From Actinomycetes bacterium (GTDB lineage: Bacteria > Actinomycetota > Actinomycetes > Streptosporangiales > Streptosporangiaceae), in NCBI GenBank assembly GCA_021792405.1, contig JAJYUU010000049.1, positions 1-33,789 of the forward strand: a stretch of 33,789 nucleotides of DNA, in the 5' to 3' direction. Below the pieces are notes generated by a model that was given only the letters and a program-made list of their open reading frames with translations, was not told the DNA's origin and searched no databases. The first letter of the stretch is position 1; the number at the start of each line of letters is the position of its first letter. The translations under genes and the position numbers were made by a program. Positions 3,610-33,789 of this stretch are shown in pieces.

Positions 3610-6600
3610 TTAGCCGCGGAGCCGCAGGCCGCGCGGGGTCGGCCGGAAGCCCGCCGCGGCGAGCGCGCCAGCCAGGGGCGAGTCGTAGACCTCGGCGCCG
3701 TCGGCGCGCTCGACCGTGAGCCTGCCGAGTGCGCCGGCCCGGATTGCCGCCGCCAGGGCGGCTGCAGCCGGCTCGAGCAACTCCGGCTCGCTGGTCCAGG
3801 ACAGCAGCGTCTTGCCGCCGCGCTCCACGTAGAGGATCAGGTCGCCGTCGGCGAGCACTACCAGCGCCCCTGCCTTGCGGCCGGGCCGGTGTCCGGTCGA
3901 GCCGTCGGTGCCGGACCGGTCCGGCCACGGCAGGGCAGCGCCGTAGGCATTCGCCGGATCGGCGGCCGCAAGGACCCTGATCTGCGGGCCGCGGCTCGCG
4001 CGAGCATTCGCCTGGGTGTCCCACGGGTCGCCGGCCCGATCCGGCTCGCGCGCGGTGTCAGCCACAGCGCGCATCCGGTCCACCGCGCCAGTGAGCGCGA
4101 ACTGGGCGGCGCCGAGACCCTCCACGAAGTACCCGCGACGGCACTGGCCGCCGTCTTCGAGCGCGCGCAGCACCGGGTACAGCGCGCCGAACCCGCCTTC
4201 GACGCGCTCGGCGGCAACTGAGCCGCGGATCAGGATGCCGTACCGGTCCAGCAGCGTGAGCGCCTGAGCGTGCAAGCGGCGCGTCGGGTCGCTGGCCGAC
4301 GCCGGCACGGCCGACCAGCGACCGCTCACTGTCGGCGGCCCGGTATGCGAGGGCATCGCGCCGCGGCCGAAATGCGGCCGCCTCGACACCACGGAACCTG
4401 GCCGGGCCGGCACCTGGCGCTGGCCGTGGTCGCCGTCGGACATCACCGGCCGCCCGGCACGCAGCACCGTGCGCAGCGGCGCGAGCGTGTCATTGGTGAG
4501 CCGGCCAGCCCAGACCAGATCCCAGATCGCGCTCGCGACGTCGCGGTCGCTGACCGCAGCCGGCTTGCCCGCGTCGACCGCGAGTGCGGCCTGCACTCGC
4601 TCGGCGATCGTTCGGAAGAACAAGGCGCCGCCGCCGGCCAGCGCGCCGAGTACGGCCTCGTGCACCAGCGTGGTCGTGATGTCCGCGGGCTCTGGCAGCA
4701 GCAGCGGCGCCGCCCCGGCCGGCGTCAGGATGAGCCAGCCGTCACTGCCCGGCAGCGCACCCGCGCCCGACCAGACGATCTCACCCGCCGCGGTCAGCTC
4801 GTCGAGCAGCGCCGGAGAGTAACCGGGCACCCGCTGTGGCAGTACCAGCGTCTCCAGCGCAGAAGCCGGGATGGCTGCGCCGGCAAGCTGGTCGATCACC
4901 TCGTACACGGCGTCCGCGCGGGCGGCGCGCGGGCGGGCGCCGCCCGCGGCTGCCGGGCTCGCGCCCGCATTGCCGACAGCCGCTCTGTCCGCGTGCTGCC
5001 AGGCGGGCAGGAACGCGGCATAGACAGCCGGCGGCACCGCCTCGACCTCCTTGCGGAGCCTGGCAAGGCACCGGCGGCGCAGCAGCCGCAGCATGCCGAC
5101 CTCGCACCACTGGATGCCGGCGGCTGGCTGGAAGTCTCCCTCGGATAGTGCGCCTTCGGCAGTCAGCCGGTGCAGCGCCCCGGCTACGACGGCGACGCCG
5201 AGCCCGTACCGTTGCGCGACCTCGGCCGCGCCGAACGGGCCGTGCGTTCGCGCGTACCGCACTACCAGATCCCGCAGTGGATCGGGAAGCGGCTCGGTGA
5301 ACGCATCCGGCACTCCGGGCGGCAGCGCCACTCCGAGCGCGTCGCGGAGGCGGCCCGCGTCCTCGATCGCACTCCAGCGCTGCTGCCCGGCAATGCGCAG
5401 ATCGAGAACGCGCCGCTGAGCGGCCAGGCTGGCCAGGAAGGACGGCGCCTGTGCCGGGTCGGCGGAACGTTCCGCCACCTCGGCAGTGGTCAGCGGGCCA
5501 AGAGCGCGCAGCATGTCCGCGACGGCCTCGGCGTCCCGGCAGACCCGGCCAGGGGCAAGCCGTTGCAACTCGCGCTCGGTCTCGCCGACGACCAGCGGGT
5601 CGAGCAGCTCACGGAGCTCCGCCTGCCCCAGTAGCTCGGCGAGCAGAGCCGAGTCGAGCGCGAGGGCCTGAGCCCGTCGCTCGGCAAGCGGCGCGTCGCC
5701 TTCGTACATGAACGCGCCCACGTAGCGGAACAGCAGCGACTTGCTGAACGGCGAGGCGGTCGGCGTCTCGACCTCCACCAGCCGGATGCGCCGGGCGGCG
5801 ATATCGCGCATCAGCGCAGTCAGGCCGGGCACATCGAACACGTCCTGCAGGCACTCCCGCATGGTCTCCAGGCAGATCGGGAACGTGCTGTACTGGCTGG
5901 CCACCGCGAGCAGCTGCGCGGATCGCTGGCGCTGCTGCCATAGCGGTGTGCGCTTGCCCGGTTGCCGCCGCGGCAGCAGCAGCGCGCGAGCGGCGCACTC
6001 CCTGAATCTGGAAGCGAACAGCGCCGAGCTGCCCACCTCGGCAGTCACCAGGTCGGCAACCTCGTCGGGGTCGATCATGGCGATTCCGGCTGGCGGCGGG
6101 TCGTCGGCGTCAGGGACCCGGATCACGATGCCGTCGTCGGTGTGCTGAGCCTGGACGTCCATGCCGCCGTACCGGTCGCGCAGCCGCGCGGCGATCGCCA
6201 GCGCCCAGGGTGCGTGCAGCGCAGCGCCGTACGGGCTGTGCAACACGAGCCGCCAGTCGCCGAGTTCGTCCCTGAACCGCTCGAGAACCAGAGTCCGGTC
6301 GTCGGGCAGGTAACCGGTAGCCTCGCGCTGCTGATGGAGATAGGAAACCAGATTGGCGGCGGCAAGCTCGTCCAGGCCGCCGTTGCGGAGCCGGGAGATC
6401 GCCTCCGGCCTCGCTACCGAGCCGAGCTCACGGCAGAACGCGCCGATCGCCGCGCCGAGCTCAGCCGAACGGCCGGGCGCGTCGCCCTTCCAGAACGGCA
6501 GCCTGCCCGGCTGGCCCGCGGCGGGCGACACGAGCACCTGATCCGCGGTGATGTCCTCGATCCGCCACGACGTCGCACCGAGCACGAACACGTCGCCGAC

Positions 6601-8529
6601 CCTGGACTCGTACACCATCTCCTCGTCCAGTTCGCCGACCCGGCGCGAGTGCCGGCCTGGCCGGTCGCTCTGCCCGCTGGCCAGGAACACCCCGAACATA
6701 CCCCGGTCCGGGATCGTGCCGGCGTTGCTGACGGCCAGCCGCTGGCTGCCCGGCCGGCCGCTGAGCGTTCCGGTAGTGCGATCCCAGACCAGCCGCGGCC
6801 GCAGGCCAGCGAAGTCCTCGCTCGGGTACCGGCCGGACAGCATGTCCAGCACGGCCGCGAGCACGGGCCTGGTCAGCCCGCTGAACGGGGCCGCGCGCCG
6901 GATCACCTGCTCAAGCTCGCCGATCTCCCAGTCATCCAGCGCGGTCATCGCGACGATCTGCTGGGCCAGCACGTCGAGTGGGTTGCGGGGCATCCGCACT
7001 TCCTCGATCTGCCCCGCGCGCATCCGCTGGGTGACGACCGCGGTCTGGACCAAGTCGCCCTGGTATTTCGGGAAGAAGACGCCACGGGACTCATCGCCCA
7101 CGTGGTGCCCGGCGCGCCCGGTCCGCTGCAGCCCGCTGGCAACCGATGGCGGCGACTCGACCTGGATCACCAGGTCGACCGCGCCCATGTCGATGCCGAG
7201 CTCGAGGCTGGACGTCGCAACGACTGCGGGCAGCGTTCCGGCCTTCAGTGCCTCCTCGATCTGGCTGCGCTCCTGGCGGGAGACCGAGCCATGGTGGGCA
7301 CGTGCCACGATGGCGGGTGCCCCGGCGCTGGCGCCGGCCTCACCCATGAGCTGGGCCGGCGGCCTGGTGTAGCTGTCGCCGAACCCGGCAGCCAACTCGT
7401 CAGCACCCTCTGCGGCCCGTTCGGCCGCCAGGTCGTTCAGCCGTGCGCAGAGCCGCTCGGCGAGCCGCCGGGAGTTGGCGAACACGATCGTCGACCGGTT
7501 GCCCTGGATCAGGTCGAGCACCCGCTCCTCGACGTGCGGCCAGATCGAATGCTGCCGGACCGGGTCGGTGTCACCGGGGAGAGGTGCACCGCCGGGGCCG
7601 GCCGCCCGGATGACCCGGCCGTCAGCCATCGGCACGCGAGCACCGGCCCGCGCGGCGGTTGCTCCGGCAGCGTCAAACCCGTCGCTGCCCTGCAGGTCGG
7701 CCATGTCTTCGACCGGGACGACAATCTGCAGGTCAAGCCGCTTCTCGCTGGGCGGGGCGACGATCGTGACCGGCAGCGCACCGCCGAGGAACGCGGCGAC
7801 TTCCTCCGGTGGCCGGACCGTTGCCGACAGCCCGATGCGCTGCGCGGGCCGCATACTCACCGGCCCGGCGCTCACCGGCCTGGTGCTTACCGGCCCGGCG
7901 CTTGCCGGCGCGCGGGCGTTCGGCCGGGCAGCGCCGGCGCGCAGCGCGTCGAGCCGCTCCAGCGACAACGCGAGATGCGCGCCGCGCTTGCCGCCCGCCA
8001 GCGCATGTACCTCGTCGACGATGACAGTCTCGATGCCGCGCAGCCCCTCCCTGGCCTGTGACGTCAGCATCAGGAACAGTGACTCGGGCGTGGTGATCAG
8101 GATGTCTGGCGGCTTGCTGGCCAGCTTCCGGCGCTCGTCCGCTGCCGTATCGCCGGTCCGGACCGCGACGGTGATCTCTGGCTCTGGCAAGCCAAGCCGC
8201 CTGGCCGCGTGGGTAATCCCGGTCAGCGGCGAGCGCAGGTTCCGCTGGATATCGGTAGCAAGAGCCTTAAGCGGCGATATGTACAGCACCCGGCAGCGCC
8301 GCTTCGGGTCGGCCGGGACTGCCTCGCCGGCCAGCTTGTCGATCGCCCACAGGAACGCGGCGAGCGTCTTGCCTGATCCGGTCGGGGCGATGACCAGGGT
8401 GTGGTCGCCCGCCCCGATCGCACGCCAGGCCTGCGCCTGGGCCGCTGTCGGCTCGGCGAATGCCGAGGTAAACCACGACCTCGTCGCCTCGCTGAAATCG
8501 GCAAGCCCAGGGCTCGCTACCGTTGCCAC
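3610..8529 (-). CDS. lhr: Lhr-family ATP-dependent helicase
   Basis: This large superfamily 2 helicase of about 1639 residues belongs to the Lhr family, DNA/RNA-DNA translocases linked to DNA repair. N-terminal RecA-like domain: Walker A APTGSGKT (residues about 48-55), TTPESL, the DEVH box in IVDEVHALAGGKRGAHL, and the SAT motif. Domain 2 has SSLELGIDMGAVDLVIQ and QRTGRAGH. The Lhr-specific winged-helix and C-terminal region follow to the end. The chosen start is GTG 8529, shortly before the conserved ADFSEATRSWF; its SD-like GGAGG is unusually close, so the start is uncertain by a few residues. The frame stays open for a further 178 codons upstream, but that part overlaps the divergent GNAT gene and lacks family content. 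A Pro/Ser-rich tandem repeat sits between the DEVH box and the SAT motif. It is slightly longer than the roughly 1500-residue mycobacterial homologue. Confidence 0.92.
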   Translation of the reverse strand: MATVASPGLADFSEATRSWFTSAFAEPTAAQAQAWRAIGAGDHTLVIAPTGSGKTLAAFLWAIDKLAGEAVPADPKRRCRVLYISPLKALATDIQRNLRSPLTGITHAARRLGLPEPEITVAVRTGDTAADERRKLASKPPDILITTPESLFLMLTSQAREGLRGIETVIVDEVHALAGGKRGAHLALSLERLDALRAGAARPNARAPASAGPVSTRPVSAGPVSMRPAQRIGLSATVRPPEEVAAFLGGALPVTIVAPPSEKRLDLQIVVPVEDMADLQGSDGFDAAGATAARAGARVPMADGRVIRAAGPGGAPLPGDTDPVRQHSIWPHVEERVLDLIQGNRSTIVFANSRRLAERLCARLNDLAAERAAEGADELAAGFGDSYTRPPAQLMGEAGASAGAPAIVARAHHGSVSRQERSQIEEALKAGTLPAVVATSSLELGIDMGAVDLVIQVESPPSVASGLQRTGRAGHHVGDESRGVFFPKYQGDLVQTAVVTQRMRAGQIEEVRMPRNPLDVLAQQIVAMTALDDWEIGELEQVIRRAAPFSGLTRPVLAAVLDMLSGRYPSEDFAGLRPRLVWDRTTGTLSGRPGSQRLAVSNAGTIPDRGMFGVFLASGQSDRPGRHSRRVGELDEEMVYESRVGDVFVLGATSWRIEDITADQVLVSPAAGQPGRLPFWKGDAPGRSAELGAAIGAFCRELGSVARPEAISRLRNGGLDELAAANLVSYLHQQREATGYLPDDRTLVLERFRDELGDWRLVLHSPYGAALHAPWALAIAARLRDRYGGMDVQAQHTDDGIVIRVPDADDPPPAGIAMIDPDEVADLVTAEVGSSALFASRFRECAARALLLPRRQPGKRTPLWQQRQRSAQLLAVASQYSTFPICLETMRECLQDVFDVPGLTALMRDIAARRIRLVEVETPTASPFSKSLLFRYVGAFMYEGDAPLAERRAQALALDSALLAELLGQAELRELLDPLVVGETERELQRLAPGRVCRDAEAVADMLRALGPLTTAEVAERSADPAQAPSFLASLAAQRRVLDLRIAGQQRWSAIEDAGRLRDALGVALPPGVPDAFTEPLPDPLRDLVVRYARTHGPFGAAEVAQRYGLGVAVVAGALHRLTAEGALSEGDFQPAAGIQWCEVGMLRLLRRRCLARLRKEVEAVPPAVYAAFLPAWQHADRAAVGNAGASPAAAGGARPRAARADAVYEVIDQLAGAAIPASALETLVLPQRVPGYSPALLDELTAAGEIVWSGAGALPGSDGWLILTPAGAAPLLLPEPADITTTLVHEAVLGALAGGGALFFRTIAERVQAALAVDAGKPAAVSDRDVASAIWDLVWAGRLTNDTLAPLRTVLRAGRPVMSDGDHGQRQVPARPGSVVSRRPHFGRGAMPSHTGPPTVSGRWSAVPASASDPTRRLHAQALTLLDRYGILIRGSVAAERVEGGFGALYPVLRALEDGGQCRRGYFVEGLGAAQFALTGAVDRMRAVADTAREPDRAGDPWDTQANARASRGPQIRVLAAADPANAYGAALPWPDRSGTDGSTGHRPGRKAGALVVLADGDLILYVERGGKTLLSWTSEPELLEPAAAALAAAIRAGALGRLTVERADGAEVYDSPLAGALAAAGFRPTPRGLRLRG
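7856..7915 (-). repeat. 15-nt tandem repeat inside lhr
   Basis: Four consecutive 15-nt copies of a CTCACCGGCCCGGCG-like unit (7856-7870, 7871-7885, 7886-7900, 7901-7915) show increasing divergence. They encode a GPVS(T/A/M)RP-rich linker in the helicase, between the DEVH box and the SAT motif. The insertion keeps the frame and lies in a loop-like position, so it is probably tolerated slippage. Confidence 0.75.
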
Positions 8530-8649
8530 CCCTCCATACTGCCCGCTGCCGCCGACAGTCCGGGTCGGGTGAGCATGTCCGGCGCCGCCGCGCGGTGGCG
8601 GCTCGCGACCTGGCAGACTTCCTGGGTGGGCGAGCGTAGTGATCCGCTG

Positions 8650-9171
8650 ATGAGCCAGGTGACCAGCCCGGAGCAGGTCACCGCTGACCTGAGACGGGAG
8701 GTTATCGACTGCTGGGTCCTGGTCAGCAACGCCGGAGGGGCGGTCGGGTTCCCCTTTCTTCCTGTCGATATCACCCATGTCGCACCCGTTGCTGACAAGC
8801 TCTTCGCTGGCCTCAGCCCTGAATGCAGCCGGCTCCTCATCGCGCGGACCGGGGATAGCCTGGCCGGCTGGGTGCACCTCCATCGCAATCCGAGCCCCGT
8901 CATCGCTCATTGGGGCACCATCAGCCATCTGCAGAGCCTTCCTTCTGTACGCGGCCAGGGGGTCGGAAGTGCCCTGATGGTGCGTGCCAGGCAGGTCGCG
9001 CGAGCAGAGATGGGCCTGGAGCAACTGCGCCTCGCCGTACGCGGCGGGACCGGACTGGAGCATTTCTACGCCAGGCTCGGCTGGACTGTGATCGGCGGTT
9101 GGCCCGGTGCGCTCAGGCTTGCCCCAGGTGACGACCGCGATGAGATACTTATGATCCTCAGCCCGCTGTGA
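8650..9171 (+). CDS. GNAT-family N-acetyltransferase
   Basis: This protein of about 173 residues has the GNAT acetyl-CoA-binding signature VRGQGVGSALM (Q/RxxGxG/A type), followed by the usual helix and the C-terminal LEHFYARLGWTVIGGWPGAL segment. The substrate cannot be told from the sequence. The N-terminal part, ADLRREVIDCWVLVSNAGGAVGFPF, resembles stand-alone actinobacterial GNAT proteins. The start is taken at ATG 8650, where family-like sequence begins; ATG 8575 is in frame but adds unlikely residues. The ribosome-binding site is weak for both. It is divergent from lhr with about 120 nt between starts, so the two probably share a promoter region. Confidence 0.82.
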   Translation: MSQVTSPEQVTADLRREVIDCWVLVSNAGGAVGFPFLPVDITHVAPVADKLFAGLSPECSRLLIARTGDSLAGWVHLHRNPSPVIAHWGTISHLQSLPSVRGQGVGSALMVRARQVARAEMGLEQLRLAVRGGTGLEHFYARLGWTVIGGWPGALRLAPGDDRDEILMILSPL

Positions 9172-20871: not shown

Positions 20872-23082
20872 ATGGCACCGAATGACAAGGCGGGTAGCGG
20901 CAAGGGCGTTGGCGGTGACAGGGAGAAGTCCCTGGAGACTGCGCTCGCGCAGATCGAGCGGCAGTTCGGCCGTGGCGCCATCATGCGACTCGGCGATGAT
21001 GCCCGCACGCCAGTCGAGGTGATCCCGACTGGGTCAATCGCGCTGGATGTCGCGCTCGGGATCGGCGGCTTCCCCAAGGGCCGCATAGTGGAAATATACG
21101 GACCGGAGAGTAGCGGTAAGACATCGCTCGCGCTGCATGCTATTGCTAACGCGCAGAAGGCAGGCGGCATCGCGGCATTCATAGACGCCGAGCACGCACT
21201 CGACCCGGATTATGCCAAGAAGCTCGGCGTCGACACCGACGCGCTGCTGGTTTCCCAGCCCGACACCGGTGAGCAGGCCCTGGAGATCGCGGACATGCTG
21301 ATCCGCTCCGGCGCCATCGATGTCATCGTCATCGACTCGGTCGCCGCGCTGGTCCCGAAGGCCGAGATCGAGGGCGAGATGGGGGACAGCCACGTCGGCC
21401 TGCAGGCCCGGCTGATGTCGCAGGCCCTTCGCAAGATCGCCGGCGCGCTGAACCAGACGAAGACCACCGCGATCTTCATTAACCAACTGCGGGAAAAGAT
21501 CGGCGTCCTGTTTGGATGTATGTCCTATAATACCCGAATTACCCTAGCTGATGGCAGCCAGGAGAAGATCGGGAAAATCGTCAACCAGCGCATGGATGTG
21601 GAAGTCTTGTCCTACGACCCGGTGACCTGCCAGATCGTCCCGCGCAAGATCGTTAGCTGGTTCAACAACGGGCCAGCCGAACGGTTTCTGCAGTTCACCG
21701 TCACTAAGTCCGGCGGTAATGGCAGGTCTCAGTTCGCGGCGACCGAGAATCATCTGGTGCGCACGCCGGGCGGCTGGCGTGCTGCGGGCGAACTGATCGC
21801 GGGGGACAGGCTCCTAGTCAGTGAGCCGCATCGGCTGAGCGATCAGCAGATGCAGGTCGTGCTCGGCTCGCTGATGGGCGATGGGAATCTTTCACCTAAC
21901 CGTCACGGCAGGTCCGGGGTCCGGTTCCGACTCGGCCATAGCGCGAAGCAAGCTGCGTACCTGGACTGGAAGGTGTCCCTGCTCGGCAACATCAAGTGCG
22001 CCCGCTCGGCCAATGCGAAGGGCGCTGTTTTTGCCGACTTCACCCCGCTGGCAGAACTCGCCGAGCTGCATGACGTCGTCTACTTTGGTGCTGGCAAGAA
22101 GCACCTGACCTGGGACTACCTGAAGGCTCTCACGCCGCTCGCACTGGCGATCTGGTACATGGACGATGGCAGCTTCACCCTTCGCCCTAAAGGGCTGCAG
22201 GAGCGGACGCAAGGCGGTTCAGGCCGGATCGAGATCTGTGTCGAGGCGATGAGCGAGGGCTCGCGGGAACGACTTGTGCAGTACCTGCGGGACACTCACG
22301 GGTTGGATGTCAGGCTGCGTGCCGCTGGTGCGCTCAAGAAGGCAGTCTTGGTCTTCAGCACAGCCGGGACGGAGAAGTTCCAGAAGCTCGTCGCGCCGTT
22401 CGTGCATCCCTCGATGGAGTACAAGCTCTTGCCGCGGTTCCGGCAGCAGTTCAGCGTCCAGCCCGAGTACGCGGAGCCCGAACTGCGACTTCAGCCTGCA
22501 CGGATCTTGGACATCCATGTCAAGCCACGTACGCGATCCATGAACCGGTTCGATATCGAGGTGGAAGGCAACCACAACTACTTCGTTGATGGCGTCATGG
22601 TCCACAACAGCCCTGAGACGACGTCTGGCGGGAAGGCGCTGAAGTTCTATGCGTCGATCAGGTTGGACATCCGCCGGATCGAGACGCTGAAAGACGGCAC
22701 TGAGGCGGTCGGCAACAGGACTCGCGTCAAGGTAGTGAAGAACAAGGTCAGCCCGCCGTTCAAAGTGGCCGAAATGGACATCCTGTACGGGCAGGGTATT
22801 AGCCGTGAAGGCGGCCTTATTGACCTTGGCGTCGAGCAGGGCATAGTACGCAAGGCCGGCGCCTGGTACACCTACGACGGCGACCAGCTCGGTCAGGGGA
22901 AGGAGAACGCCAGGAACTTCCTGCGCGACAACCCGGACCTGAGCAACGAGATCGAGAAGAAGATCAAGGAGAAGCTCGGCGTCGGGCCCAGGCTCGACTC
23001 CGATGCTGCGGCAGCTGGCGGAGGCGCAGGGCCGGCGGCAGCGCCAGGGCTGGCTTCAGTGACGAACCTGCGCGGCCAGTAG
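20872..23082 (+). CDS. recA: RecA recombinase precursor containing an intein
   Basis: The precursor has 736 residues. The mature RecA (372 residues) is formed by residues 1-215 joined to 580-736. It pairs homologous DNA strands and activates LexA self-cleavage. The Walker [10 protein letters not shown] is at residues 77-85 and the Walker B VIVIDS at 151-156; the conserved [12 protein letters not shown] ends the N-extein, and [16 protein letters not shown] begins the C-extein. The C-terminal tail is Ala/Gly-rich. The start ATG 20872 has AGGAGC at a good distance. An SOS box is about 300 nt upstream, and recX follows 7 nt after the stop. Activity depends on splicing of the intein, whose catalytic residues all appear intact. 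Confidence 0.97.
21517..22608 (+). other. RecA intein, Mycobacterium leprae allele type, with LAGLIDADG endonuclease
   Basis: This 364-residue in-frame intein (precursor residues 216-579) lies between FG and SPETT. Splicing residues are present: Cys1 in [10 protein letters not shown], the block B TxxH in ATENH (His79), the penultimate His363 and final Asn364 in DGVMVHN, and Ser as first C-extein residue. Two LAGLIDADG-type motifs, LGSLMGDGN (116-124) and IWYMDDGSF (212-220), keep their aspartates, so the homing endonuclease may be active. Sequence, length and insertion point correspond to the RecA intein of M. leprae and relatives, not the M. tuberculosis RecA intein, which sits further downstream at the site before SPPFK. 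Two sampled lines are 57-58% GC, against 68% in a sampled recA line, consistent with horizontal spread. Confidence 0.95.
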
Positions 23083-30975: not shown

Positions 30976-31833
30976 ATGCGGTTCGCCAAGGGGCACGGGA
31001 CCGGCAACGATTTTGTGATCGTGCCCGACCCGCAAGGTCAGCTTGACCTGACGGTCGGGCTCGTGCGCGCCTTGTGCGACCGGCACTACGGCATCGGGGC
31101 GGACGGCGTGCTCCGTGTTGTCCGCTCGGCCATGGCCGGCACCGACGCGGCAGGGCAGAGCGCCGAGTGGTTCATGGACTACCGGAATGCCGACGGCAGC
31201 CTCGCCGAGATGTGCGGCAACGGCGTGCGGGTGTTCGCCCGTTACCTGCTTACTGAAGGGCTGGCTGTCGGACCGGAACTGGCCGTTGCCACCAGGGCAG
31301 GGACTAAGCCGGTCCGGGCTGAGGCAGACGGCCAGTTCACCGTGGACATGGGGGCCGCCGCTGTGCTAGGCGACGGCCAGGTGCAAGCGGGCGATCGGCG
31401 GATCGGCGGGCTGGCGATCTCGGTCGGGAACCCGCACCTGGCTTGCATCGTGACCGAGCCGCTGGCGGCCATCGACCTGACCGGTCCCGCCGTGCTGCGC
31501 CCGGCCGCGCTGCGCGCGGGGGCGAACATCGAAATCATCAGGGTGCTCGGCGACCGCAAGGTCGAGATGCGCGTGCACGAGCGCGGATCGGGGCTGACGC
31601 TGTCCTGCGGGACCGGAGCAGTCGCCGCCGCGGTTGCGGCAGCGGTGTTCACAGGGGAGTGGCCAGCGGAGACGACGGTGCCCTGGACCGTGCAGGTGCC
31701 GGGCGGCAAGCTCGCCGTGACACCGAGCATCACGGGCAGCTTGCTGACCGGCCCCGCGGAGATCGTGGCCACGGGGGAGCTGGCGGACGCCTGGCTGGCC
31801 GGCCACCTGCCCGCTGGGCTCCGCGCGGGCTGA
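30976..31833 (+). CDS. dapF: Diaminopimelate epimerase
   Basis: This 285-residue PLP-independent epimerase converts LL- to meso-diaminopimelate for lysine and peptidoglycan synthesis. It has FAKGHGTGNDFVIVPD at the N-terminus, the catalytic Cys80 in AEMCGNGVR and Cys211 in LSCGTGA, plus MDYRNADGS, SVGNPHLA and HERGSGLT. The gene starts at ATG 30976, 35 nt after miaA. It is convergent with the small minus-strand gene at 31847, the stops being 13 nt apart. Nothing appears damaged. Confidence 0.97.
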   Translation: MRFAKGHGTGNDFVIVPDPQGQLDLTVGLVRALCDRHYGIGADGVLRVVRSAMAGTDAAGQSAEWFMDYRNADGSLAEMCGNGVRVFARYLLTEGLAVGPELAVATRAGTKPVRAEADGQFTVDMGAAAVLGDGQVQAGDRRIGGLAISVGNPHLACIVTEPLAAIDLTGPAVLRPAALRAGANIEIIRVLGDRKVEMRVHERGSGLTLSCGTGAVAAAVAAAVFTGEWPAETTVPWTVQVPGGKLAVTPSITGSLLTGPAEIVATGELADAWLAGHLPAGLRAG

Positions 31834-31846
31834 GCCGGCTTCGATA

Positions 31847-32113
31847 TCACGACCGGGCCGGGCGAGCCGCAGCCGCGGCACGCGGGTCTGGCTGGACGGC
31901 GAGCTTGAGGCCGAGGTCGACGAGCTTCCAGCCGGTTCTCGTCCGCAGTGACTGGCGTGTCTGGCGTGTCCGCAGTGACCGGCGCGCCCGCAGTGACTGC
32001 CCGGCGCCGGCGCGCTGAGTTCGCGGCTGCCGCCCGCTGATGCGGCCGCCACTCAGCCGGTGCATCTCGGCGTGGCGCTGGCGGGCTAGCTCCTCGAACA
32101 TTCGCTGATTCAT
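31847..32113 (-). CDS. Small basic protein downstream of the DUF4097 gene
   Basis: This 88-residue protein starts at ATG 32113 with AGGAAGG upstream. It begins MNQRMFEELARQRHAEMHR and ends with RTGWKLVDLGLKLAV, an amphipathic or hydrophobic helix. The middle is Arg/Ser/Gln-rich, partly from short repeated DNA (CGCAGTGAC-like units near 31944-31996). I recall small actinomycete proteins with a similar layout (an N-terminal ELARxRxAEM helix and a C-terminal GWxLVxLGLRL helix), but no function. It lies 74 nt downstream of the DUF4097 gene on the same strand and may belong to its operon. Confidence 0.6.
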   Translation of the reverse strand: MNQRMFEELARQRHAEMHRLSGGRISGRQPRTQRAGAGQSLRARRSLRTRQTRQSLRTRTGWKLVDLGLKLAVQPDPRAAAAARPARS

Positions 32114-32187
32114 CTGACTTTGCCTTCCTGGTCGTCCCCCGGCCGTTGTGACGGCTGCGGGGAGCTGCGGAGATGCATCTGGACTGC

Positions 32188-33036
32188 CTACGGAACCACC
32201 GGGCTCGCGGCGTGGCCGGCCGGCCGGGCGGCGGATTCCGCCGCCTTGGTGACCCGGATGTCGCCACTGAGTGACTGGCACGCGATCCGCATCGCCGCGC
32301 CTGGCTCGGCCAGGTCATCCTCGCTGCCTGGGTCCAGGTCGCTGCGGATGCTGCCGGAGGTGCTGGCGAGATCGAGGTAAACGCCGATGCCCGGCACGAC
32401 GCCGACCTGCAGGTCACCTGACACGCTGCGGAGTTCGACCTGGCCGGCCGCGACGGCCCGGAGCTCGATGTCCCCACTGGCCGTCTGCGCGGTCACCGAA
32501 CTGGCGCAGTAGCCGATCGCGACGTCGCCGCTGGCGGTGGTGATCCGGGCGGGACCGTCGGCCCTCGCGAGCCGGACGTCACCTGACGCGGTGCGGATGG
32601 CGACGTCGTCGCCCGCCGTGTCGATGAGCACGTCCCCGCTGGCGGACTGCACGGTAACGGCACCGCTGATTGCCGCAGCGGTGAGGTCGCCGCTGGCGGT
32701 CTGCACGGCCAGGCCGCTGAGGCTGCCGACGCAGGCCAGGTCTGCTGAGGCGGTCTTGGCCGCGCAGGTAGATCCCTCCGGTGCCTTGATGGTCAGGTCC
32801 AGCCCTTGCCTGCGGCCGAATGCGCCCGTGCGCGGACCGCGGATGTACAGCTGCCCGTCCTCGAAAGCCACCTGAACGTGCGCCAGCAGGTCGCTGACGT
32901 CCGCGCCGGAGCGGCTGGGGGTAACTTCGACGGCGATCGTGCTGGTCGGCTCGCCGGACACCACGATGCTGCCGGAGATCCAGGAATCGATGCTGATGTC
33001 GACCGGATCAGGACATGCGAAATCCCACGTAGTCAT
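32188..33036 (-). CDS. DUF4097-family beta-repeat protein
   Basis: This 282-residue protein has a DUF4097 domain of right-handed parallel beta-helix type, with repeated T/SASGDV/I units (TASGDLTA, SASGDVLI, TASGDVRL, TASGDVAI, TASGDIEL, SVSGDLQV and SLSGDIRV). No signal peptide or membrane helix is seen, so it is probably cytoplasmic. DUF4097 proteins lack an established function; in Firmicutes some act with sensor systems. ATG 33036 has AGAAAGG upstream. It lies downstream of the ribbon-helix-helix gene and is likely expressed with it. Confidence 0.88.
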   Translation of the reverse strand: MTTWDFACPDPVDISIDSWISGSIVVSGEPTSTIAVEVTPSRSGADVSDLLAHVQVAFEDGQLYIRGPRTGAFGRRQGLDLTIKAPEGSTCAAKTASADLACVGSLSGLAVQTASGDLTAAAISGAVTVQSASGDVLIDTAGDDVAIRTASGDVRLARADGPARITTASGDVAIGYCASSVTAQTASGDIELRAVAAGQVELRSVSGDLQVGVVPGIGVYLDLASTSGSIRSDLDPGSEDDLAEPGAAMRIACQSLSGDIRVTKAAESAARPAGHAASPVVP

Positions 33037-33102
33037 GCTGGTGCCTTTCTGCTGGAACGCTGGTGCCTGAATGCGTGCGGGAACTGCTGGGCGGGCCGGC
33101 CG

Positions 33103-33615
33103 CTAGCTGCGGGCGAACCCGGTGTACCGCTTGCCCGTTCCGGGCCTGCCCGGCGAGGAAGGCGGGAACGGGGAGCGCTTGGCCGGGCCGCCGGGGGGAT
33201 TCTCCAGGGCCCGGCTGATAGCCCGGACGAGCCAGGAGTTCACCGACTGGCCTGCCGACAGCGCCGCGGCCTCCACCCGGGCCTTCATGCCCTCCGAGAT
33301 TCGCAGCGTCACGCGGCTGGTTCCCGCCTCGTCGCCGGCATCGGCCGTCTCCGGCGCCGCGTCATCCTGCGCCCGCGTGGTGCTGACGACGAACTCAGGC
33401 TCGGTGCCGGTCAGCCGGACGTCGACGGTCGCGCCGTCGAGGCTAGCGGTGATCTCGTCGGCCGCGGCCGACAGGACGTCGAGCAAGGCGAGTCGCACCG
33501 TGGAATCCAGGGTCTCCGACAGCATCTCGGCGGCCTTGGCTATGTCCGCACTGGCGAACCTGGTGATGGCGGTCAGTTCCCGCCGGAGCGATTCGGCGTA
33601 CTCGCTGAGATCCAT
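33103..33615 (-). CDS. Ribbon-helix-helix (HicB/Arc-like) regulator
   Basis: This 170-residue protein has a C-terminal ribbon-helix-helix DNA-binding segment (residues about 100-137: RVTLRISEGMKARVEAAAL then QSVNSWLVRAISRAL), as found in HicB- and Arc-type antitoxins and repressors. The N-terminal 90 residues are helical with a beta segment (VDVRLTGTEPEFVV). ATG 33615 lies inside a palindrome, ATGACGTCAT, and just beside further TGACG-type inverted repeats, so autorepression is likely. No HicA-like toxin gene is seen next to it; instead a DUF4097 gene follows, 66 nt downstream. It is probably the regulator of that cassette. Confidence 0.85.
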   Translation of the reverse strand: MDLSEYAESLRRELTAITRFASADIAKAAEMLSETLDSTVRLALLDVLSAAADEITASLDGATVDVRLTGTEPEFVVSTTRAQDDAAPETADAGDEAGTSRVTLRISEGMKARVEAAALSAGQSVNSWLVRAISRALENPPGGPAKRSPFPPSSPGRPGTGKRYTGFARS

Positions 33616-33688
33616 GACGTCATGATGACGCCAAAAGTGGCGTCAGTCAAGTCCATTTCCGGCGTCAAACTTGGCGCTACCTGACGCC
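33614..33688. promoter_or_regulatory. Cluster of TGACGCC-type palindromic operators
   Basis: Within 75 nt upstream of the ribbon-helix-helix start are TGACGCCAAAAGTGGCGTCA (33626-33645, a perfect 8-nt inverted repeat with 4-nt centre), GGCGTCA...TGACGCC (33661-33667 and 33682-33688, 14 nt apart), and ATGACGTCAT (33614-33623) overlapping the start codon. The half-site TGACG(C) recurs at least five times. Ribbon-helix-helix dimers bind such paired sites cooperatively, so this is probably its own operator. Confidence 0.75.
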
Positions 33689-33719
33689 ATGCACCGCCAG
33701 GGCGGGTGCGGGCTCCTTG

Positions 33720-33788
33720 TCAGCCCGGCAGCGACTCAAGCGGAACGCCGCGGATCGAGGCGTCGAGGACCTCGGCGACATGCGCCAC
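33720..33788 (-). CDS. C-terminal end of a gene entering from the right edge
   Basis: The minus strand encodes VAHVAEVLDASIRGVPLESL then PG and a TGA stop at 33720-33722. The frame is open to the edge of the window, so only the last 22 residues are present. The codon use looks genuine, but the family cannot be told from so little. Confidence 0.45.
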   Translation of the reverse strand: MAHVAEVLDASIRGVPLESLPG

Positions 33789-33789
33789 C

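Follow-up and report, generated by a model that had tools for sequence, protein, structure and literature searches.

Palindromic boxes over the promoter and start codon of an actinomycete ribbon-helix-helix gene: a predicted self-controlling switch of a small DUF4097 operon

Introduction

What does a ribbon-helix-helix (RHH) regulator control when a dense cluster of short repeats lies before and over its own start codon, and when its neighbours are a DUF4097 (Toastrack) gene and a gene for a small basic protein? The locus in question is located close to the end of a 33,789-nt stretch of actinomycete DNA, referred to below as the window. The earlier note, made from the letters of the window, had suggested for this locus a possible undescribed regulatory or toxin-antitoxin-like cassette, with a regulator resembling HicB-type antitoxins. 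The features of the locus, all on the minus strand, are as follows.

33682-33689 and 33660-33667, minus strand: outlying boxes within 33660-33689, the former exact (TGACGCCA), the latter imperfect
33638-33645, minus strand: putative operator box 1, TGACGCCA on the minus strand, adjoining the -35 element; register -29
33626-33633, minus strand: putative operator box 2, TGACGCCA, reading TGGCGTCA on the minus strand, overlapping the -10 element; register -18
33615-33622, minus strand: putative operator box 3, TGACGTCA, with the A of the regulator's ATG as final base; register -7
33622-33650, minus strand: predicted sigma-70-type promoter, TTGACT-17 nt-CATCAT, from a promoter scan, ending 6 nt before the ATG
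33103-33615, minus strand: RHH regulator, 170 aa (open reading frame, alignment, structure model, RHH matches)
32188-33036, minus strand: DUF4097 (Toastrack) protein, 282 aa (PF13349, E 4.8e-19)
31847-32113, minus strand: small basic protein, 88 aa, stop included (open reading frame 31850-32113; profile matches, alignment A2)

Results

Box array, promoter and start codon

Six TGACG/CGTCA 5-mers are present in one 76-bp stretch, at 33615-33686, while any other 76-bp stretch of the window contains at most three, and this density was reached in 0 of 200 first-order Markov simulations. The half-site cluster noticed earlier before and over the start codon is thus real and beyond chance. As a refinement of the palindromes described with it, each box is an 8-bp palindrome of its own (TGRYGYCA, for instance TGACGTCA) and not one half of a larger palindrome, and the boxes follow each other at a spacing of about one helical turn.

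A promoter scan of positions 31800-33789 returned a single site, 33650-33622 (mean of 0.0 in shuffled sequences), and the three boxes lie exactly on this promoter-like site, box 1 at the -35, box 2 over the -10 and box 3 at the ATG. With the array on the promoter and the A of the ATG as the final base of box 3, the mRNA of the regulator is probably leaderless. An SD-like motif (GGAG, GAGG or AGGA in -18 to -5) was found before the RHH start in 0 of 119 homologous loci. For the DUF4097 frame, such a motif precedes the first ATG in 58 of 79, a rough control because the first ATG may differ from the true start. The same array could in principle serve activation of the operon by the RHH protein, for which the outlying upstream boxes at 33660-33689 would be suitable; the conserved boxes, however, cover the spacer, the -10 and the start, which is the position of occlusion, and we regard an activator as very unlikely.

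Conservation of the regulator and its boxes

Of 100 relatives, the window's own genome among them, 47 have a homologue of the regulator; across the phylum a homologue was detected in 46 of 396 sampled genomes (E <= 1e-15). For comparison of the upstream regions, 119 distinct loci were collected, the window being excluded. Relatives contributed 40, and the best 80 of 468 named loci contributed 79 after removal of one duplicate protein (L077, identical to L038). The genera among the named loci include Streptomyces, Kitasatospora, Nonomuraea, Actinomadura, Cellulomonas, Cryobacterium and Blastococcus. Relatives with split or the weakest matches were left out (G013, G014, G016, G026, G029, G037, G056, G062, G063, G064 and G094). 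As a later sample from the phylum, 40 of the 46 matching genomes were taken, without G000, G081 and G094, which had been met earlier, and without G357, G363 and G397; one locus lacked a start, leaving 39. The box pattern was derived from the first 40 loci, and both the named loci and the phylum sample are independent of this derivation.

Among the 118 loci with enough upstream sequence, an exact box starts at -18 in 97 and at -7 in 93, and exact box 1 starts at -29 in 63 and at -30 in 8; box density in -32 to -6 is about 22 times that in -300 to -81. Two or three exact boxes within 36 nt were found in 100 of the 119 loci, while base shuffles of the same loci gave 0.62 loci with one box and none with two. 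In many operators one box departs from the pattern.

Of the 39 loci in the phylum sample, 20 have one exact box or more, and an SD-like motif precedes none of these; among the 19 loci without a box, 9 have such a motif. For the most part the box-less loci are distant homologues, the majority with DUF4097 adjoining. As these distant homologues keep the RHH-DUF4097 pair with SD starts and without boxes, the gene pair can do without the operator and is more widespread than it. With gene order and operator both kept across Actinomycetota, the idea of a regulatory cassette is supported.

Location of the boxes on the genome

The exact triple-box pattern gave 10 matches in 8 of the 16 genomes searched and none in the other 8; the reversed control pattern gave one. 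Nine of the 10 matches are at an RHH start codon (one operator being counted on both strands), and the tenth is about 40 bp farther upstream of one of the same RHH genes. A pair of loci, L166 and L169 (G007:C298:4451-4520), represents two triple-box arrays that precede a single N-type RHH gene and are separated by about 40 bp.

With the looser two-box pattern, the window genome yielded its own operator and single isolated matches on contigs C40 and C285, and a wider regulon in this genome was set aside. Further two-box matches exist in relatives, for example on G001:C226, G008:C128 and G008:C288. In G007 and G008, conserved matches occur some 880 bp downstream of the RHH start; by their position they appear to be coding repeats inside the DUF4097 frame.

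The confinement of triple boxes to, or beside, the regulators' own start codons points to the RHH protein as a local autoregulator. Various other factors commonly bind TGACGTCA, and the boxes might accordingly belong to another transcription factor that counts the RHH gene among its targets. We consider this highly improbable: in the 16 genomes every triple box is located at or next to an RHH gene, and the letters of the box change together with a residue of the RHH strand, also between paralogues within one genome.

Strand residue and box type

RHH homologues share the strand pattern R-x-[T/S/N/A]-x-R. Thr or Ser at the third strand residue goes with TGA..TCA boxes, Asn with TGG..CCA boxes and Ala with TGATATCA. 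Of the Asn loci, 65 have boxes mostly of the GC type (TGG..CCA) and none mostly of the AT type; of the Thr, Ser and Ala loci, 43 are of the AT type (TGA..TCA) and 3 of the GC type; 30 loci were undecided. Four genomes (G003, G006, G007 and G027) contain both T-type and N-type paralogues, each preceded by its own kind of box. At two loci with Ala at the recognition position (L205 and L210), TGATATCA boxes are located upstream of the RHH start, and these loci perhaps form a third specificity class.

Kinship could explain the pattern. Asn was gained or lost about three times on the tree, giving 1 to 3 independent pairs, so that the match between residue and box loses significance when kinship is taken into account; moreover, 23 of the 39 phylum-sample loci were added to this tree, picked by score or visible boxes, a choice that favours the match. 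If the residue does read the box, Thr103Asn would shift the preference of the regulator from TGACGTCA toward TGGCGCCA.

Operon partners and neighbourhood

The two partners had been named correctly: the DUF4097 protein scores 69.1 bits against the PF13349 cut-off of 22.9, and the small basic protein corresponds to the frame best read as 31850-32113. A DUF4097 frame follows the regulator in 111 of the 119 loci (one of the eight exceptions is cut by a contig end), while the small protein was detected at the RHH-DUF4097 operon in 9 of 60 genomes by profile search. The small protein (MNQ..ELARQRHAEM....RTRTGWKLVDLGLKLAV) has a conserved GW....GLxL segment (alignment A2) and no Pfam match. Relatives of it (MHPxL...GWxLVxxGLRLA) also occur unlinked to the operon, at 3256 in L170, 3341 in L171 and 3401 in L173, where they adjoin unrelated genes, one of them after a MerR-like regulator.

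A DrrA-type ABC ATPase is found within 4.2 kb in 75 of the 119 loci. No ABC ATPase or permease gene lies between DUF4097 and the downstream gene in the window; the window lineage has the conserved small basic protein where most relatives have an ABC exporter. The operon is bounded downstream by a convergent gene (30976-31833) which we take to be dapF. Upstream, the window contig ends at 33789, and its last 127 bases (33663-33789) recur unchanged at the end of contig C100 of the same genome; this identity represents an assembly join, so that the window can be read onward into glcF-glcE-glcD. The upstream gene, on the same strand and ending near 33720, is presumably glcF of a glycolate-oxidase cluster. 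Several near relatives likewise hold the operon on the chromosome between glcF-like and dapF-like frames. Elsewhere in the window, the frame at 20872-23082 (plus strand, 736 aa) is presumably recA with an apparent intein (13 protein letters not shown ... VHNS) and a homing-endonuclease-like middle, and the 1817-aa frame at 3610-9063 (minus strand) resembles a large Lhr-type helicase.

The regulator is unlikely to be an antitoxin

The regulator is composed of an N-terminal domain (about 1-80), a flexible linker, the RHH domain (about 100-138) and a basic tail. Its RHH strand is R101-V-T-L-R105, of which R101 and R105 are invariant in the 39 rows of alignment A1. The structure model gives helices at 108-121 and 125-138 and leaves the strand unassigned; only the helices were used because the pTM of the model is 0.36. 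The two-helix model, together with matches to AtaR, Arc and Mnt at weak E-values, agrees with the RHH (Arc/MetJ) superfamily. In the fold search nothing reached E <= 0.001, the best RHH matches being at E 0.6-1.0, and no PDB match was obtained for the N-terminal domain. The top-ranked match, a viral glycoprotein chain, was discarded as meaningless by rmsd.

The regulator had been likened to HicB-type antitoxins. Pfam HicB matches it over a 31-residue RHH stretch (103-133) at 20.3 bits, below the cut-off of 21; 37 of 39 family members match HicB at E <= 0.01, and outside the RHH stretch of the regulator no Pfam match to a HicB-type N-terminal domain was found. The name HicB goes back to a weak match that covers just the RHH stretch, and membership in HicB is unsupported. 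The locus was also said to be devoid of a toxin partner, and this was borne out: no HicA is present near the locus, the three HicA matches in the genome being on contigs C90, C281 and C73 and none on C26 or C100, and PADLOC matched none of the regulator, the DUF4097 protein and the small basic protein.

These results bear on a toxin-antitoxin-like cassette, in which the RHH protein would be the antitoxin and the DUF4097 or small protein the toxin. The nearest RHH among solved structures is the antitoxin AtaR, and RHH autoregulators whose operators cover their own promoters are typical of type II antitoxins. On the other hand, besides the results of the HicA, PADLOC and Pfam searches, the partner is a beta-repeat scaffold, often accompanied by an ABC exporter as the usual downstream partner, the chromosomal position between glcF-like and dapF-like genes recurs in several near relatives, and usual RHH antitoxins have only about half the length of this 170-aa regulator. 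The toxin-antitoxin reading, to which we give very little chance, was set aside.

Discussion

Proposed mode of regulation

As the boxes lie over the regulator's own promoter and start codon, in a layout common to many actinomycete relatives, the regulator is most likely a self-controlling switch of a small envelope or efflux operon and not part of a toxin-antitoxin pair. We put at roughly 0.8 the probability that the RHH protein represses its own leaderless envelope/efflux-stress operon through the box array. The boxes, their register, the promoter match, the gene order and the confinement of triple boxes in the genomes searched are observations, from which binding, repression, leaderless start, signal and output are distinguished as inferences, as follows. 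RHH dimers would occupy 8-bp palindromes one turn apart, forming an Arc/MetJ-like array over the spacer between -35 and -10, the -10 itself and the A that opens the start codon; in this proposal RNA polymerase would be shut out by the array over promoter and start. Relief would probably follow when a signal from the envelope or from a toxic compound is sensed, either by the N-terminal domain or by the Toastrack protein encoded in the same operon, and would turn on Toastrack together with a DrrAB-like ABC exporter in most relatives or with the small basic protein in the window lineage.

The nature of the operon is suggested by its gene content and by two papers. Ravi et al. 2024 (PMC11237479) proposed that Toastrack acts inside the cell as a scaffold for membrane stress signalling, and in the lunaemycin cluster DrrA, a permease and DUF4097 are found together (Lun25-27; PMC9866976); the assignment to envelope or efflux stress is drawn from all of these. 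A bolder version of the proposed repression would have strictly local switches throughout the phylum, with an operator fused to the start codon, a binding specificity changed by a single strand residue (Thr, Ser, Asn or Ala), the co-encoded Toastrack as the sensor that itself pulls the RHH protein off DNA, and a window branch in which a new small basic effector has taken the place of the exporter. Taken as a whole, this version is doubtful.

With the self-repression proposed here, a family resembling "HicB antitoxins" becomes a class of local regulators that is open to testing, and its DNA signature predicts the start codon and promoter of these RHH genes. The natural operator variants with their matching protein residues provide material for the study of RHH recognition, and the locus indicates a control element for the DrrAB-like exporters of actinomycetes.

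Comparison with known systems

The cassette had been called undescribed. Its neighbourhood is already in print, since section 27 of PMC11237479 (Ravi et al. 2024) mentions an actinobacterial operon of RHH factor, Toastrack, ABC ATPase and permease. Most homologues described here share this general neighbourhood, but the window branch differs from those operons in having no ABC ATPase and permease genes; the operator, the promoter, the residue code and a version without ABC genes are not described in that section. In the lunaemycin cluster, a gene for a 177-aa hypothetical protein adjoins a DUF4097 gene (Lun1-Lun2; PMC9866976), a likeness in gene layout. Searches of open-licence papers turned up no description of the operator, of the way in which it overlaps the start codon or of the match between residue and box.

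With HicB and the AtaR/TacA-type antitoxins the regulator shares the RHH fold and, likely, autoregulation. It differs from them in that no toxin gene was found, no HicB-like N-terminal match was obtained and the partner is Toastrack.

The half-sites of Arc are 11 bp apart, and the met boxes are 8-bp palindromes. Like Arc and MetJ, the system described here combines a C-terminal RHH domain with short sites, the boxes being 8-bp palindromes 11 bp apart. Unlike Arc and MetJ, the regulator carries an extra N-terminal domain, and its third box is built into the start codon.
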